Part shown: in pieces, positions 24,590 through 31,754 of the stretch
Position numbering within the stretch: position 1 is the first letter of the stretch
Layout: each line of letters starts with the position of its first letter
DNA from: Chloroflexota bacterium
GTDB taxonomy: Bacteria; Chloroflexota; Anaerolineae; Anaerolineales; Villigracilaceae
Direction: 5' to 3'
NCBI GenBank assembly: GCA_016191985.1
Contig: JACPVB010000195.1
Span: forward strand, 1-38,036
Length of the DNA stretch: 38,036 nucleotides
Translations under genes and position numbers: made by a program
Notes under the pieces: generated by a model
The model's input: only the letters and a program-made list of their open reading frames with translations
Databases searched by the model: none
Told to the model about the DNA's origin: nothing

Positions 24590-27274
24590 TCAACTCATCT
24601 TCCCGAACCAGCCTCTACGCTCCATCCACTTTGCAATTTCCAGCACCGGTGAAATCGTCAGTGCCAACGTAAACACGATGAGCCAGTCCACCAACGGCAT
24701 GTAATACGTACCGAAAGCGTCATGCAGGAAGGGCACATAAATGATTAGTATCAATAGTATCACCTCCCACAGGATGGCGACATTCAGCCACCTGTTGGAA
24801 AACGGGTTATTGAATACCGAGTGGCGATCGGAGCGAAAGTTGTAGGCTTTGAAAAACTGAATTAGCACCAATGAGACAAAGGTCATCGTCATGGCTTCTT
24901 CGATACTTCGCCCGGAATTCAGCGCCCAGGTGAATAACCCCAGGTTGATCAGCGCGGACCAGATTCCGCCCAGCACCATTAGTATGACCACCGGACGGGT
25001 GAAAATACCGGTGCGCGGATCGCGCGGCCTGCGCTTCATCAAGTCCTTCTCAGCGGGATCAATCGAGAGCGCCAGGGCGGGCAAACCATCCGTCGCCAGA
25101 TTGACATATAAAATTTGAACTGCTGTTAATGGAAGCGGCAATCCGAGCAGGGTAGCGCCAGCCATCAGCCCGATTTCTCCGATATTCGAAGAAAGCAGGT
25201 ACATCAGATATTTCTTGATGTTGCCGAAAACTCCGCGCCCTTCCTCCACTGCGGCGACGATGGATGCAAAGTTATCGTCCAGCAGGGTCATGGCTGCGGC
25301 TTCCTTGGTCACGTCGGTGCCGGTAATGCCCATTGCAACGCCAATGTCGGCTTTCTTGAGCGCCGGGGCATCGTTCACGCCGTCGCCCGTCATGGCGACA
25401 ATATGTCCATTGGTTTGCAAAGCTGTCACCACGCGCAGTTTATGCGCCGGGGAAACGCGCGCATAAACATCGATGGTTTCCACTTCGCGCGCGAACTGCT
25501 CGTCGCTCATGTTTTCCAGTTCCGCGCCCGTAACAACCCGCCCGCTCTTGAGCAACCCCAACTCGCGCGCCACAGCCTGCGCCGTCATGGGATGGTCGCC
25601 GGTGATCATCACCGGGCGAATGCCTGCTTCTTCGCAAACGGCAATCGCGGCTTTGGCTTCGGAGCGCGGCGGGTCTATCATCCCTGCCAGCCCGAGAAAT
25701 ACCATATCCGCTTCAGCGGTTTCCAACGCCGCGCGCGGCTTGGATGCAATCGCCAGCACACGCAACGCCTCGCCTGCCATCTCCTGCGCTGTGGCAAGTA
25801 TCTTTTCGCGCCCGGGGGCATCCAGCGGCAGAGTGCCATCGGCGGTCAGCTGCCAATTGCAACTTCCAAGAATCACTTCCGGCGCGCCCTTGGCGTACGC
25901 TGTCAGGCCGTCTTCCGTTTTGTGCAAGGTGGTCATGCGTTTTGATTCGGATGTGAATGGGATTTCCTGCACTCGTGGATAAGCGGAATCAAGAGACTCT
26001 TTCTGCAGCCCGGCTTTTGCCGCCGCCGCCACCAACGACCCTTCAGTTGGGTCGCCCTTAATATGCCATCCACTACCCGATTCATTTTCTCCATTAACCA
26101 GATGCGTATCCGAAGCCAGTGTTGCAGCGGTCAGCATCTGCTTGAGCGCATCGGTTGGAAGAGTGGGCGTTCCACCATTGACCGAGAACTCTCCCAGCGG
26201 GGCGTAACCCGCGCCCGACACCTTGAATATCTGTCCGCCCGCATAAATTTTGCGCACGGTCATCTCGTCTTTGGTCAACGTACCGGTTTTATCCGAGCAG
26301 ATCACGGAGGTGCTGCCAAGTGTTTCCACGGCGGGCAGGCGGCGAATCAACGCATTGCGCTTGACCATCTTCTGCACACCGATTGCCAGTGAAATTGTCA
26401 CCACTGCGGGCAGGGCTTCCGGCACGACCGCTACTGCCAGCGCAATGCCAAAGATGAGCATTTCGATGAAAGGCTGTCCACGGAACAAACCGAGTGCAAC
26501 GATAATGGCAACCACCACAAAAGCCGCTCGAGCCAGCATGGTACCGACTTTATCCAGATTATGCTGGAGGGGCGTTTTGCCCGTTTCAACCGTTTGCAGA
26601 AGTTGGGCAATTTTTCCGAACTCGGTCTGCATGGCGGTTGCGATTACCAATCCGCGCCCGCGCCCGTAGGTGGCGGCGGTTCCAGCGTAGATCATGTTCT
26701 TGCGGTCACCAACAGCCAACCCGTCAGAAGGAAGCGGAAGGGTGTGTTTTTCCACTGGCATAGATTCGCCCGTCAGCGCGGCTTCATCCACTTGCAAGTT
26801 GATCGATTCAAGCAGGCGCGCATCGGCAGGGACGCGGTCTCCTGTGTGAAGAAGGATCACATCGCCCAGAACCAACTCACGAGCAGGGATTTTAGTTTCC
26901 TTGCCGTCGCGCAAGACTGTTGCCGTAGGCGCCGCCATATGGCGCAGGGCTTCGATGGCGCGTTCGGCGCGGTACTCCTGAATGAAGCCCAGCACAACGG
27001 CAAACAGGACAATGACGGCAATCACAATGGATTCTACGCCATGCCCCAAAAATAAGGAAATCGCCGTCGCGCCAAGCAGGATTAGAATCAACACATTTTT
27101 GAATTGTTCCAGCAGGATTTCCCACGCTGAAATGCGCTTTGCCGCTTGGATTTCATTTGCTCCATATTCTGAAAGTCTCAGGGCGGCATCCGCACTGCTT
27201 AATCCTTCGTGTTGGCTTTGGACCTGCGTCAATGCCGTATCAATCGTTAGGCTGTGCCAGTTATTCTGTTTCAT
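24590..27274 (-). CDS. Cation-translocating P-type ATPase (P2A/Ca2+-ATPase-like; candidate Mn2+/Ca2+ exporter)
   Basis: 894 aa; TGES; AVAVVPEALPAVVTISLAIGVQKMVKRNALIRRLPAVETLGSTSVICSDKTGTLTKDEMTV; MTGDGVNDAPALKKADIGVAMG; NLATDGLPALALS. Confidence 0.95.
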   Translation of the reverse strand: MKQNNWHSLTIDTALTQVQSQHEGLSSADAALRLSEYGANEIQAAKRISAWEILLEQFKNVLILILLGATAISLFLGHGVESIVIAVIVLFAVVLGFIQEYRAERAIEALRHMAAPTATVLRDGKETKIPARELVLGDVILLHTGDRVPADARLLESINLQVDEAALTGESMPVEKHTLPLPSDGLAVGDRKNMIYAGTAATYGRGRGLVIATAMQTEFGKIAQLLQTVETGKTPLQHNLDKVGTMLARAAFVVVAIIVALGLFRGQPFIEMLIFGIALAVAVVPEALPAVVTISLAIGVQKMVKRNALIRRLPAVETLGSTSVICSDKTGTLTKDEMTVRKIYAGGQIFKVSGAGYAPLGEFSVNGGTPTLPTDALKQMLTAATLASDTHLVNGENESGSGWHIKGDPTEGSLVAAAAKAGLQKESLDSAYPRVQEIPFTSESKRMTTLHKTEDGLTAYAKGAPEVILGSCNWQLTADGTLPLDAPGREKILATAQEMAGEALRVLAIASKPRAALETAEADMVFLGLAGMIDPPRSEAKAAIAVCEEAGIRPVMITGDHPMTAQAVARELGLLKSGRVVTGAELENMSDEQFAREVETIDVYARVSPAHKLRVVTALQTNGHIVAMTGDGVNDAPALKKADIGVAMGITGTDVTKEAAAMTLLDDNFASIVAAVEEGRGVFGNIKKYLMYLLSSNIGEIGLMAGATLLGLPLPLTAVQILYVNLATDGLPALALSIDPAEKDLMKRRPRDPRTGIFTRPVVILMVLGGIWSALINLGLFTWALNSGRSIEEAMTMTFVSLVLIQFFKAYNFRSDRHSVFNNPFSNRWLNVAILWEVILLILIIYVPFLHDAFGTYYMPLVDWLIVFTLALTISPVLEIAKWMERRGWFGKMS

Positions 27275-27277
27275 AAT

Positions 27278-27535
27278 TTATTTTTTTCCTGTGTAAGTCA
27301 TGTCTAGCCTGTCCTCGCGGCGGGGCATGCGGGATTTGAAGATGAAATGATCGAACAGGCAAATCAGCCCGCCAAGGATAGCCACGAGAATCACGCCAAA
27401 GATTTCCGCGGCAAAGGCCATCGTCTCCTCGAACCAGATGACAAGCGTTGTGCCGCCTGCACCGCTGGCAAGGACGGGCTTCCAGAATCTTCGAAAACGC
27501 GGGAAACGGGAAGGATGTGAAGGGTGTCTGGACAT
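27278..27535 (-). CDS. Small hypothetical membrane protein
   Basis: 85 aa; basic N-terminus and a hydrophobic segment EIFGVILVAILGGLICLFDHFIF; 3 bp upstream of the P-type ATPase ATG. Confidence 0.6.
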   Translation of the reverse strand: MSRHPSHPSRFPRFRRFWKPVLASGAGGTTLVIWFEETMAFAAEIFGVILVAILGGLICLFDHFIFKSRMPRREDRLDMTYTGKK

Positions 27536-27604: not shown

Positions 27605-28264
27605 CTAGTCGTCGTTCGAACGAACATGGGCAAACGCCGGAACCAATAACCGACGGGTGTAGTAAATGTAAATTGCCAGCGCCGCCATTCCACCGATCAG
27701 CAGGTAGGGCAGGTATTGTTTGAGATAGGTGCTGACCAGCGTCCACTCGTGCCCAAGCACATATCCTGCGCCAATCAGCAGAGTACACCAGGCATAAGCG
27801 CCGATAAAGGTGGCGATAAAAAATGTCGTAAATGACATACGCGCCAATCCTGCTGGAATGCTGATGAGTGTGCGGATGCCGGGCATCACACGCCCAACGA
27901 GCACCAGGCCTGCACCCCAGCGATGGAACTGGTATTCCGCGCGGGTGATGTGGACTGGGTCAATCCGCAGCCAGCGGGCAAATTTATCCACCACTGGACG
28001 CCCACCCAGACGCGCCACCCAATAGGTGAGGGACGCGCCGAGGGTACTGCCAAGGGCGGCATATAACCCACCCAGGAAAATCGTTGAGATGGGTAATTGA
28101 TGTTCGGCAATCAGCATCCAGCCTGCCAGCCCAAGAATGACCTCGCTGGGCGTGATGCCTGTGGCGTTTTCAAAGACCAGAAGCGCTGCCACGCCAAACC
28201 AGCCCCAGGCATCGTAAATAGTTTGGATGGCGGATAGTATGATGGTTTCGAGCCTGTCTATCAA
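27605..28264 (-). CDS. DedA family membrane protein
   Basis: FENATGITPSEVILGLAGWML...LGASLTYWVARLGGRPVVDKFARWLRID...GAGLVLVGRVMPGIRTLISIPAGLARMSFTTF; TTG start preceded by AAGGAG. Confidence 0.9.
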   Translation of the reverse strand: MIDRLETIILSAIQTIYDAWGWFGVAALLVFENATGITPSEVILGLAGWMLIAEHQLPISTIFLGGLYAALGSTLGASLTYWVARLGGRPVVDKFARWLRIDPVHITRAEYQFHRWGAGLVLVGRVMPGIRTLISIPAGLARMSFTTFFIATFIGAYAWCTLLIGAGYVLGHEWTLVSTYLKQYLPYLLIGGMAALAIYIYYTRRLLVPAFAHVRSNDD

Positions 28265-28395: not shown

Positions 28396-28671
28396 TTATG
28401 TGTGTTTGGGGGGAGGGAAAACAGGTAACAAGTCGGCAGTTTGAAAATCCAGATTTATCCACCCATATTTCGAAATAATCAAACCTGCGATTGCTATGGC
28501 GATGACCAATATGAAATAATCATCTTCAAATTCACTTTGCTCGAAATCAATTTCGGAAAGTTCCAACATGGATATGCCATCAGCAGGCACAGACAGCATG
28601 ACCTGAGCGCTTAAACAAAAGCAGAGAATCAGAATTACGAGGGAGATTCGAAAACGGGATTGTCCAAGCAT
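28396..28671 (-). CDS. Small membrane protein with acidic segment, first ORF behind the Mn2+ riboswitch
   Basis: 91 aa; hydrophobic N-terminus, acidic ELSEIDFEQSEFEDDY, second TM YFILVIAIAIAGLIISKYGW; ATG 32 bp after the riboswitch terminator. Confidence 0.55.
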   Translation of the reverse strand: MLGQSRFRISLVILILCFCLSAQVMLSVPADGISMLELSEIDFEQSEFEDDYFILVIAIAIAGLIISKYGWINLDFQTADLLPVFPPPKHT

Positions 28672-28702: not shown

Positions 28703-28735
28703 AAAAAGACCATCGCCAAAAATAGCGATGGTCTT
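28703..28735 (-). terminator. Terminator/expression platform of the Mn2+ riboswitch
   Basis: Minus strand AAGACCATCGC-tattttt-GGCGATGGTCTTTTTGTTTTT; uses the same CCATCG that closes the aptamer P1 stem. Confidence 0.85.
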
Positions 28736-28820
28736 GCGCTTCACTCAGGCAGCCGGGAAATTTCTTTCCGTCTTGACGACTGCTCAACCCGAAAAATCGG
28801 GTGGCTACTCCCCATCGGAG
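28725..28820 (-). ncRNA. yybP-ykoY family Mn2+-sensing riboswitch aptamer
   Basis: Minus strand CGATGGGGAGTAGCCACCCGATTTTTCGGGTTGAGCAGTCGTCAAGACGGAAAGAAATTTCCCGGCTGCCTGAGTGAAGCGCAAGACCATCGC; carries GGGGAGTAGC, AGTCGTCA, CCGGC and GCAAGACC signatures of the family. Confidence 0.9.
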
Positions 28821-28833
28821 TAATTACACTTAC

Positions 28834-28862
28834 AGTGTACAGGAGAATTGGATTTGCGTCAA
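28834..28862 (-). promoter_or_regulatory. Sigma70-type promoter TTGACG-N17-TACACT upstream of the riboswitch
   Basis: Minus strand TTGACG CAAATCCAATTCTCCTG TACACT. Confidence 0.75.
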
Positions 28863-30006: not shown

Positions 30007-31299
30007 TCACAGCCAGCGATACACAAGCGCATACAAGATACTGGCTATCGCGCATGTGACCAGCATGACCGGCAGGCCGCGTTTGAGCCACAAGGCGGAA
30101 GTGATCGGCGTGCGTGTTTTCTCCGAGAGCGTGGCAACGATGATATTTGCGCTCGAACCGATGATCGTTCCGCTACCGCCAAAGCCCGCGCCAAACGCCA
30201 GCGCCCACCAAAGCGGACTGATATCCATGCCGGTCTCGCCCAGCCCCTTGATGACAGGGATCAATGCAATGGTGATCGGCACGTTATCCACAACTGCGGA
30301 GAGCGCCGCCACGATCCAAATCATAAGAATACCGAACAACACCGGCGACATCCCATCGGCGTTTTGGAACAAGGTAACCACTATTTCCAGCACGCCGGAA
30401 TGTTCCAGCCCGCCCACCATCACAAATAACGAACCAAAGAAGAGCAGGATGCTCCACTCTACTTTTTTCAATATTTCGTGAATGTCCGGCTGCACCCAAA
30501 TCAGCGCGACCGAAGCCGCGCTCAACGCAACAAACGACGGTTCAATGTGCAAAAAGTGGTGCACAAAGAAAAACAGGGTCGCCCCGCCAAGCACAATCAG
30601 AACGCGGCGCGCATTTTCAGGATGGTTCAGGGTCTCCGCAGGGTTTAGCTTCATCACGGCTTTGCTTCTGCGCGGACGTTTGGATAATTCCTTTTTGAAA
30701 AGTGCTTGCAGCAGGAACGTGGCTCCCGCCAGCGCCACAAGCACGATCGGCATGGAATAAACGAGAAAATCATTGAAAGAAAGCCCGGCTGCCGAGGCGA
30801 TGAGCACATTAGGCGGGTCGCCCACCAGGGTGGCAACCCCCCCTGTATTGGACAACAACGCCTCCGCGACAAGATATGGAAGCGCGCTGACACCGATGAT
30901 CTCGCTGATAAGAATGGTGACCGGCGCGATCAAAACAATGGTGGTCACGTTGTCCAGGAACATGGAAAGAACGGTGGTAATTCCCCCCAGCAGGAGGAAC
31001 AGACGAATGGGTTTTCCCTGGGAAGCGCGCGCCGCAAGCACAGCCAGGTATTCAAAGAACCCTGTCGGCTCCAGCATGGCGACGAGGATCATCATCCCCA
31101 TTAAGAGGCCGAGCGTATTAAAGTCAATCGCTTCGATGGCGGCCTCCTCCGAATAAAACCCCATGATTTTTCCAACACCAATCATAAGCACAGACCCGGC
31201 AATGGCGACGATGGAACGGTTTATTTTTTCGGAAAAAATAAGGATGAGGCTTCCAAAAAAGATAACGCTGGAAATGATGATGGCGAGAATGGGCATCAT
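30007..31299 (-). CDS. ArsB/NhaD family transporter
   Basis: MMPILAIIISSVIFFGSLILIFSEKINRSIVAIAG...SMFLDNVTTIVLIAPVTILIS...GGVATLVGDPPNVLIASAAGLSF...VVDNVPITIALIPV...GFGGSGTIIGSSANIIV. The start is placed at the ATG overlapping the CBS gene stop; the upstream ORF extension overlaps the CBS gene. Confidence 0.92.
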   Translation of the reverse strand: MMPILAIIISSVIFFGSLILIFSEKINRSIVAIAGSVLMIGVGKIMGFYSEEAAIEAIDFNTLGLLMGMMILVAMLEPTGFFEYLAVLAARASQGKPIRLFLLLGGITTVLSMFLDNVTTIVLIAPVTILISEIIGVSALPYLVAEALLSNTGGVATLVGDPPNVLIASAAGLSFNDFLVYSMPIVLVALAGATFLLQALFKKELSKRPRRSKAVMKLNPAETLNHPENARRVLIVLGGATLFFFVHHFLHIEPSFVALSAASVALIWVQPDIHEILKKVEWSILLFFGSLFVMVGGLEHSGVLEIVVTLFQNADGMSPVLFGILMIWIVAALSAVVDNVPITIALIPVIKGLGETGMDISPLWWALAFGAGFGGSGTIIGSSANIIVATLSEKTRTPITSALWLKRGLPVMLVTCAIASILYALVYRWL

Positions 31300-31754
31300 T
31301 CCCCCTTTGCCCATGTGGAAAGGATGGCAACGCCGACATCGACGCGCGATGCGATCCCGATCAATTTTCCATCCTTGGAGACCACGGGGATGTCGTGCAG
31401 GTTTTGTTGCAGCATCAGGGCATAGGCGCGCAGGAGACCGCAATCCTCGTCCACGGTGATTACGGGGCGCATCAGGGATTTGATGGTCTTGTTCAATGTC
31501 TTCGCGGGCGGACGTGTATCCTCCACCGCCCCAAAGTCGTGGACAAAATCCACATCGACAACAAAATTTACAAAATCGGGCAATTCAAGTTTGAGCAGGT
31601 CGCGCATACCGATGACGCCGATGGGTTTGTTATCCTCATCCACGACGGGCAGCAAGCCGATATGTTTTTTTACAAAAATGGCAGCGGCTTCGTGGATCGT
31701 GGTGCCCGGCGTAATGGAAACAACGTGCCGTTTCATACAGGTGGTTACGTTCAT
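31296..31754 (-). CDS. CBS domain pair protein
   Basis: MNVTTCMKRHVVSITPGTTIHEAAAIFVKKHIGLLPVVDEDNKPIGVIGMRDLLK...LMRPVITVDEDCGLLRAYALMLQQNLHDIPVVSKDGKLIGIASRVDV. Confidence 0.93.
   Translation of the reverse strand: MNVTTCMKRHVVSITPGTTIHEAAAIFVKKHIGLLPVVDEDNKPIGVIGMRDLLKLELPDFVNFVVDVDFVHDFGAVEDTRPPAKTLNKTIKSLMRPVITVDEDCGLLRAYALMLQQNLHDIPVVSKDGKLIGIASRVDVGVAILSTWAKGE

Follow-up and report, generated by a model that had tools for sequence, protein, structure and literature searches.

Organization of the locus

The window analyzed here is a DNA stretch of 38,036 nucleotides (contig C183) from a 3.41-Mb MAG of 304 contigs that is 78% complete and whose lineage lies in the Anaerolineales (Chloroflexota), near Candidatus Villigracilaceae. 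On its minus strand, a putative promoter and a structured RNA lie ahead of four open reading frames, all of which had been claimed in an initial annotation of this DNA and all of which were found on that strand in the list of open reading frames. The features are as follows.

28834-28862, minus strand: sigma-70-type promoter, predicted (-35 TTGACG at 28862-28857, 17-nt spacer, -10 TACACT at 28839-28834)
28807-28821, minus strand: P0, a 5' hairpin (ACTCC-GATGG-GGAGT), a family-specific addition predicted to compete with P1.1 and L1
28726-28817, minus strand: yybP-ykoY (Mn2+) aptamer, assigned by covariance model CM R1 and compensatory changes in P3.2, P3.1, and P2
28697-28735, minus strand: intrinsic terminator AAGACCATCGC-TATTTTTG-GCGATGGTCTT with a T-rich tail, its 5' arm including the 3' strand of P1.1
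28396-28671, minus strand: 91-aa small protein with a hydrophobic N-terminus, an acidic middle (FEQSEFEDD), and a C-terminal PPPK
27605-28264, minus strand: DedA (VTT-domain) membrane protein of 219 aa (PF09335), with a TTG start after AAGGAG
27278-27535, minus strand: 85-aa small membrane protein with a WKPxxATGAGGT....WFEE motif and a start after AAAGGAG
24590-27274, minus strand: P2A-type cation ATPase of 894 aa (PF00122, PF00689, PF00690)

The genes are separated by gaps of 131 nt (91-aa ORF to DedA), 69 nt (DedA to 85-aa ORF), and 3 nt (85-aa ORF to ATPase). Clear ribosome-binding sites stand in front of DedA and the 85-aa gene, and the translation start of the ATPase is likely coupled to the 85-aa stop across the 3-nt gap. 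Two adjacent minus-strand genes immediately ahead of the riboswitch promoter encode DarA-like cyclic-di-AMP receptors (PF06153; 28955-29239 and 29308-29715), and at 30007-31754, also on the minus strand, a CitMHS/ArsB-type ion transporter (478-aa ORF) adjoins a two-CBS-domain protein.

The motifs quoted for this RNA in the initial annotation were all located on the minus strand, namely GGGGAGTAGC, AGTCGTCA, CCGGC, GCAAGACC, the P1.1 strands CGATGG/CCATCG, and the AAGACCATCGC...GCGATGGTCTT hairpin and T-run, as was the quoted promoter, TTGACG-N17-TACACT, at 28862-28834. Promoter-like matches arise easily in this sequence (16 observed versus 7 expected); the promoter is nevertheless credible because, of 62 family loci, 81% have a match of at least 9-of-12 ahead of the RNA, compared with 11% of shuffles.

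A yybP-ykoY riboswitch below the RF00080 cut-off

The RNA had been proposed to be a yybP-ykoY (Mn2+) riboswitch, with an RF00080 search as the check. Formally this check failed, as a local scan gave no gathering-level match (14.9 bits against a cut-off of 45). The failure extends well beyond the window: at the gathering threshold, RF00080 had no match in the window, in its own genome, or in any of the 149 family genomes, and a single match in 399 phylum genomes. The current Manganese RF00080 model (Rfam 15), which spans 177 positions, thus misses Mn riboswitches family-wide, and its cut-off was dropped as a criterion of class for that reason. Below the cut-off, it does match at orthologous riboswitches, with E = 2.0e-6 (G126:C278) and E = 9.8e-6 (G125:C5).

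The class assignment proposed earlier is supported comparatively by a covariance model, CM R1, derived from 37 Mn riboswitches outside the family, in other families and phyla. These comprise 33 located by sequence pattern in named genomes and 4 found by RF00080 in the phylum; the pattern that selected the 33 includes the core motifs, so that agreement in motifs is partly built in and agreement in pairing is not. CM R1 matched the window copy with a score of 72.2 bits (E = 1.7e-16) and found matches in 134 of the 149 family genomes, compared with 0 of 149 for RF00080 over its cut-off. Scanning the window up to E = 10 returned nothing besides the copy at 28862-28703, and no second convincing copy was found in its own genome. 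Judged by these homologies, the window RNA is a genuine yybP-ykoY (Mn2+)-class riboswitch of known kind. Because no family genome passes RF00080 while orthologous copies match it below the cut-off, and because CM R1 recognizes the window copy at the E-value above, we judge the low RF00080 score to be a limitation of the model and not of the RNA.

Other RNA classes (sul1, RsaJ, and others) gave noise-level scores, mostly on the wrong strand. An apparent archaeal Mn riboswitch on a Methanoregulaceae archaeon contig (L144) is near-identical to a Fimbriimonadaceae copy (L148) and was set aside as a probable mis-binning.

Structure and conservation of the aptamer

The elements of the aptamer, all on the minus strand, are laid out as follows.

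28817-28812 with 28731-28726, minus strand: P1.1 (CGATGG/CCATCG)
28811-28806, minus strand: L1, the predicted metal-binding loop
28805-28804 with 28737-28736, minus strand: P1.2
28802-28787, minus strand: P2, with compensatory changes
28783-28777 with 28755-28749, minus strand: P3.1, with compensatory changes
28776-28770, minus strand: L3 (UCAAGAC)
28769-28756, minus strand: P3.2, with compensatory changes

The conserved L1 (GGGGAGUAGC), the 3' GCAAGACC, L3 (GUCGUCA, with the Mn-sensing A position), and the P1-P3 layout are all present, and the RNA folds more stably than dinucleotide shuffles (z = -5.35). In a structure alignment of 60 family sequences, the aptamer helices are paired in 93.3% of cells, compared with 25-45% when the partners are slid, and changes on both sides occur in 10 of 25 aptamer pairs (shuffled mean 7.0), most clearly in P3.2, P3.1, and P2.

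L3 reads UCAAGAC here and, in what we take to be the L. lactis sequence, UCAAUUC (U39-C45), an alignment that places the A at 28774 at the A41 position. In the L. lactis riboswitch A41 is the Mn-sensing residue, and the published site numbering agrees with the sequence as we took it (PMC9190785). P4 and the four-way junction are absent from the window copy and from the 60-sequence family alignment. Their loss is not unique to the family, as P4-less or nearly P4-less copies were also found in other phyla (Bacteriovoracaceae, Fimbriimonadaceae, and others), and on account of these copies P4 appears to be optional in Mn riboswitches.

Terminator competition and the 5' hairpin

The terminator stem comprises 13 pairs and was the top match in a scan of 22-32 kb. 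It is paired in 97.1% of cells across 60 relatives, all of which keep the sharing of a strand (CCATCG in the window) with P1.1. P1.1 is near-invariant, so that its covariation rests on one sequence, L085, in which the 5' strand of P1.1 (TGATAG), the shared strand (CTATCG), and the 3' strand of the terminator (TAGTC) have changed in a co-ordinated manner. By predicted energies, which ignore metal and tertiary contacts, the full terminator is favoured over P1.1 in 60 of 60. An expression platform in which P1.1 competes against the terminator is thus present on sequence evidence, and the mutual exclusion and ON-switch logic put forward in the initial annotation gain comparative support from the retention of the strand sharing in the 60 relatives and from the joint change in L085; a transcriptional ON switch is a well supported prediction. 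The Mn riboswitches of L. lactis and X. oryzae use the same P1.1/terminator competition mechanism (PMC6754395, PMC11087558).

P0 pairs ACTCC, just 5' of P1.1, with the GGAGT of L1, and is paired in 98.7% of cells across the 60 relatives. ACTCC is identical in 53 of the 60; among the 7 variants, read by eye, 4 keep the five pairs intact by using G-U, and for the other 3 pairing is possible after a shift of register. The unliganded nascent RNA is predicted to prefer P0 over P1.1 in 48 of 60, with a median of 1.8 kcal/mol by energies that again ignore metal and tertiary contacts. P0 was not established as a general feature of Mn riboswitches: Anaerolineales copies are plentiful even in the comparison set from beyond the family loci, and the CCCC-GAA-GGGG examples in Armatimonadota give no more than a hint.

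Genes downstream of the riboswitch in relatives

Downstream genes were surveyed over a 6.5-kb range at 62 family riboswitch loci, 58 of which have enough downstream sequence. A P2A ATPase lies downstream in 55 of these 58 informative loci, as the first gene in several, which supports comparatively the earlier designation of the ATPase as the riboswitch target; at L100, L102, and L106, where sequence is ample, no ATPase was found within 6.5 kb. Three ATPase classes were distinguished, with identities to the window ATPase of about 80%, 45%, and 49%. The first two are located behind detected Mn riboswitches, and for the class at about 49% a Mn riboswitch was found in 19 of the 27 upstream regions tested. 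Given a P2A ATPase at 55 of 58 loci, and Mn riboswitches in front of two other ATPase classes as well, Mn2+ efflux is likely the core function of the operon.

DedA was present at 27 of the 62 loci, the 85-aa protein at 33, and the 91-aa protein at 10. All three had been assigned to the Mn2+ response; DedA and the 85-aa protein recur as that assignment would have it, but the link of the 91-aa protein to Mn is weaker than had been implied, since only 10 loci carry its gene. By its homologues in those loci (28-52% identical), the 91-aa ORF is nonetheless a real conserved gene; its product has no significant match in Pfam or NCBIfam. The VTT domain of DedA (PF09335) scored 80.6 bits against a gathering threshold of 33.9 (E = 1.7e-22), and the protein matched the UptA equivalog models, in every case below cut-off.

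The 85-aa family has 38 strong matches in the 149 family genomes, nearly all of them beside the ATPase on the same contig; in one exception (G057), the 85-aa gene and the ATPase gene lie on different contigs, and a riboswitch of its own precedes each. Within a sample of 301 phylum genomes, the 85-aa family is confined to this Anaerolineales family, and the protein belongs to no Pfam or NCBIfam family. Its AF2 model consists of one long helix (residues 18-69; pTM 0.37).

Where the ATPase belongs to the 45%-identical class, its gene overlaps that of DedA or stands almost directly against it. At L080 (G145:C147), a 1122-aa frame directly behind the Mn riboswitch reads as DedA fused to an ATPase of this class; the fusion may be real or may have arisen in sequencing or assembly and, as a single metagenome case, is a lead only. 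Further arrangements were noted in passing. At L242, L243, and L247, two Mn riboswitches in tandem flank an ORF taken by eye for a GlgC-like ADP-glucose pyrophosphorylase, and at L243 a hydrophobic ORF of ~35 aa (MKLHIFFALIDALILLAYPF...) lies right behind the first of the two. A lamin-tail-domain-like protein (MSKQLSQIVRMGQLMG..., by eye) is encoded downstream of the riboswitch, sometimes before DedA, at L035, L039, L045, L047, L095, L102, L105, L112, and L113. In another lineage of the phylum (L027, L029, L031, and L032), the riboswitch precedes a CaCA-type cation exchanger-like protein (MDMMTLGLIIAGLALLALGGELLVRG..., by eye).

Identity of the P2A ATPase

The ATPase carries actuator, phosphorylation (CSDKTGT), and C-terminal cation-ATPase domains (PF00122, PF00689, PF00690, and PF13246), and D328 is invariant. 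Its closest solved structure is human SPCA1/ATP2C1 (E = 1e-187) and its best NCBIfam model the PMR1-type TIGR01522, whose equivalog cut-off it does not reach (762 versus 798.3 bits), so that we file it as a relative and not as an equivalog. SPCA1 and PMR1 are Golgi Ca2+/Mn2+ pumps. At its ion-site positions (E286, N697, E700, N725, T728, D729, and Q806) the ATPase is SERCA-like except for the Q at the E908 position. We predict that it is an efflux pump for Mn2+, or possibly for Mn2+/Ca2+, and of the two ions the evidence from regulation speaks for Mn2+; because the ATPase retains ion-site residues typical of Ca2+ pumps, it could also transport Ca2+ beside Mn2+ or be chiefly a Ca2+ pump.

Proposed mechanism and alternative explanations

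We place at roughly 85% the probability that a Mn2+-activated (ON) yybP-ykoY riboswitch controls a metal-detoxification operon at this locus, through competition among P0, P1.1, and the terminator and through Mn2+ export by the ATPase. With little Mn2+ present, the transcript would fold at its 5' end into P0 (ACUCC/GGAGU), which would occupy the 5' strand of P1.1 together with L1; the CCAUCG 3' strand would therefore be left free, the terminator would form, and transcription would stop. At high Mn2+, L1 and L3 would dock around the metal, stabilizing P1.1 and blocking the terminator, and RNA polymerase would read through into the operon. The P2A ATPase would then export Mn2+, perhaps Ca2+ too. 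The 85-aa membrane protein, made just before the ATPase, would most likely be an accessory or regulatory subunit of the pump, DedA would probably provide membrane support under metal stress, and the 91-aa protein may be an occasional accessory. A bolder extension is speculative, and we consider it doubtful as a whole. In it, the P2A Mn2+ pump would have the 85-aa WKP...WFEE protein as its dedicated subunit or regulator, which would make this protein the bacterial equivalent of phospholamban/sarcolipin-like regulators; DedA would act directly together with the pump, and the P0 anti-aptamer would sharpen the Mn2+ threshold.

The part of this mechanism most open to another explanation is P0, which might not be a regulatory anti-aptamer at all, ACTCC being conserved as initially transcribed sequence or otherwise. 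In most relatives the -10 element ends 6 nt before ACTCC, so that P0 begins where transcription should start, and the 7 variants are few to judge by; on the other hand, all 7 can still pair, in place or in a shifted register, and the window, where the spacing is 12 nt, retains ACTCC. We lean towards a regulatory P0 while giving conservation for reasons of transcription start a substantial minority share. Much less credence is due to a riboswitch that governs only the promoter-proximal 91-aa gene, with DedA, the 85-aa gene, and the ATPase transcribed separately. The gap before DedA has room for an internal promoter and holds a stable hairpin, and there is a promoter-like match at 28264, but this match falls inside the DedA coding start, the hairpin lacks a U-run, and the minus strand of the gap yielded no scoring terminator. 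In relatives without the 91-aa gene, moreover, the ATPase, DedA, or 85-aa gene directly follows the riboswitch, and we regard separate transcription as very improbable.

Between these two in plausibility, though still unlikely, is a Mn riboswitch whose ATPase pumps mainly Ca2+ and is induced by Mn2+ to keep ions in balance, not to export Mn2+. Several Ca2+-ATPase models match the ATPase, and its two-site, SERCA-like pattern of ion sites includes the TM5 glutamate E700 that is absent from SPCA1 and LMCA1. In pneumococcus, the switch has been described as Mn/Ca-sensing and the ATPase that it controls as Mn2+/Ca2+ (PMC11434433). Against this, the closest structure and best NCBIfam model are those of the SPCA1/PMR1 pumps, which handle both ions, and Mn riboswitches also precede ATPase classes that differ in TM5 residues, such as the 45%-identical class with its K (e.g., L080). 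Mn2+ export remains our preferred reading of the pump.

Comparison with known systems

A Mn riboswitch before a P-type ATPase is already known from L. lactis yoaB and S. pneumoniae mgtA; what is new is the set of accessory genes, the hairpin at the 5' end, and the failure of Rfam to cover the family. With this locus, Mn2+ detoxification by P-type ATPases under riboswitch control would reach throughout a large Anaerolineales family, mostly uncultured, that RF00080 leaves unannotated. The locus also suggests a function for DedA proteins, the relation of which to divalent cations is under debate, and for a new small-protein family abutting a metal pump, and the P0 hairpin offers a simple mutational handle on how a Mn riboswitch sets its threshold. 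DedA proteins of Klebsiella have been implicated in divalent-cation homeostasis (PMC10846249). The window DedA has the VTT domain in common with the DedA/VTT family (UptA, YqjA/YghB) and falls below the UptA equivalog cut-offs. We found no literature linking DedA or the 85-aa membrane protein to a Mn riboswitch-pump operon, in itself weak evidence of novelty.

Among pumps, the closest solved structures, SPCA1/PMR1 and Listeria LMCA1, have the P2A architecture in common with the window ATPase, which differs from SPCA1 and LMCA1 in its TM5 Glu. S. pneumoniae mgtA (formerly caxP), reportedly described by Martin et al. in 2019, is a riboswitch-controlled, Mn-exporting P-type ATPase that acts as a Mn2+ failsafe (cited in PMC11434433 and PMC9331361). 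It resembles the window in having a Mn riboswitch before a cation-exporting P-type ATPase, whereas the window ATPase shares its operon with DedA and the 85-aa protein.

The Mn2+ riboswitch of L. lactis yoaB precedes the gene for YoaB, which we take to be a P-type ATPase. That riboswitch (PDB 4Y1I; PMC9190785, PMC11087558) shares with the window copy the core motifs and an L3 of the form UCAnnnC with the Mn-sensing A, and it acts on transcription as an ON switch, with P1.1 and an intrinsic terminator in competition, a logic that we infer for the window as well. The window copy differs from it in having no P4 and an extra conserved 5' P0, in an operon that includes DedA and two small proteins, and in belonging to a different phylum.
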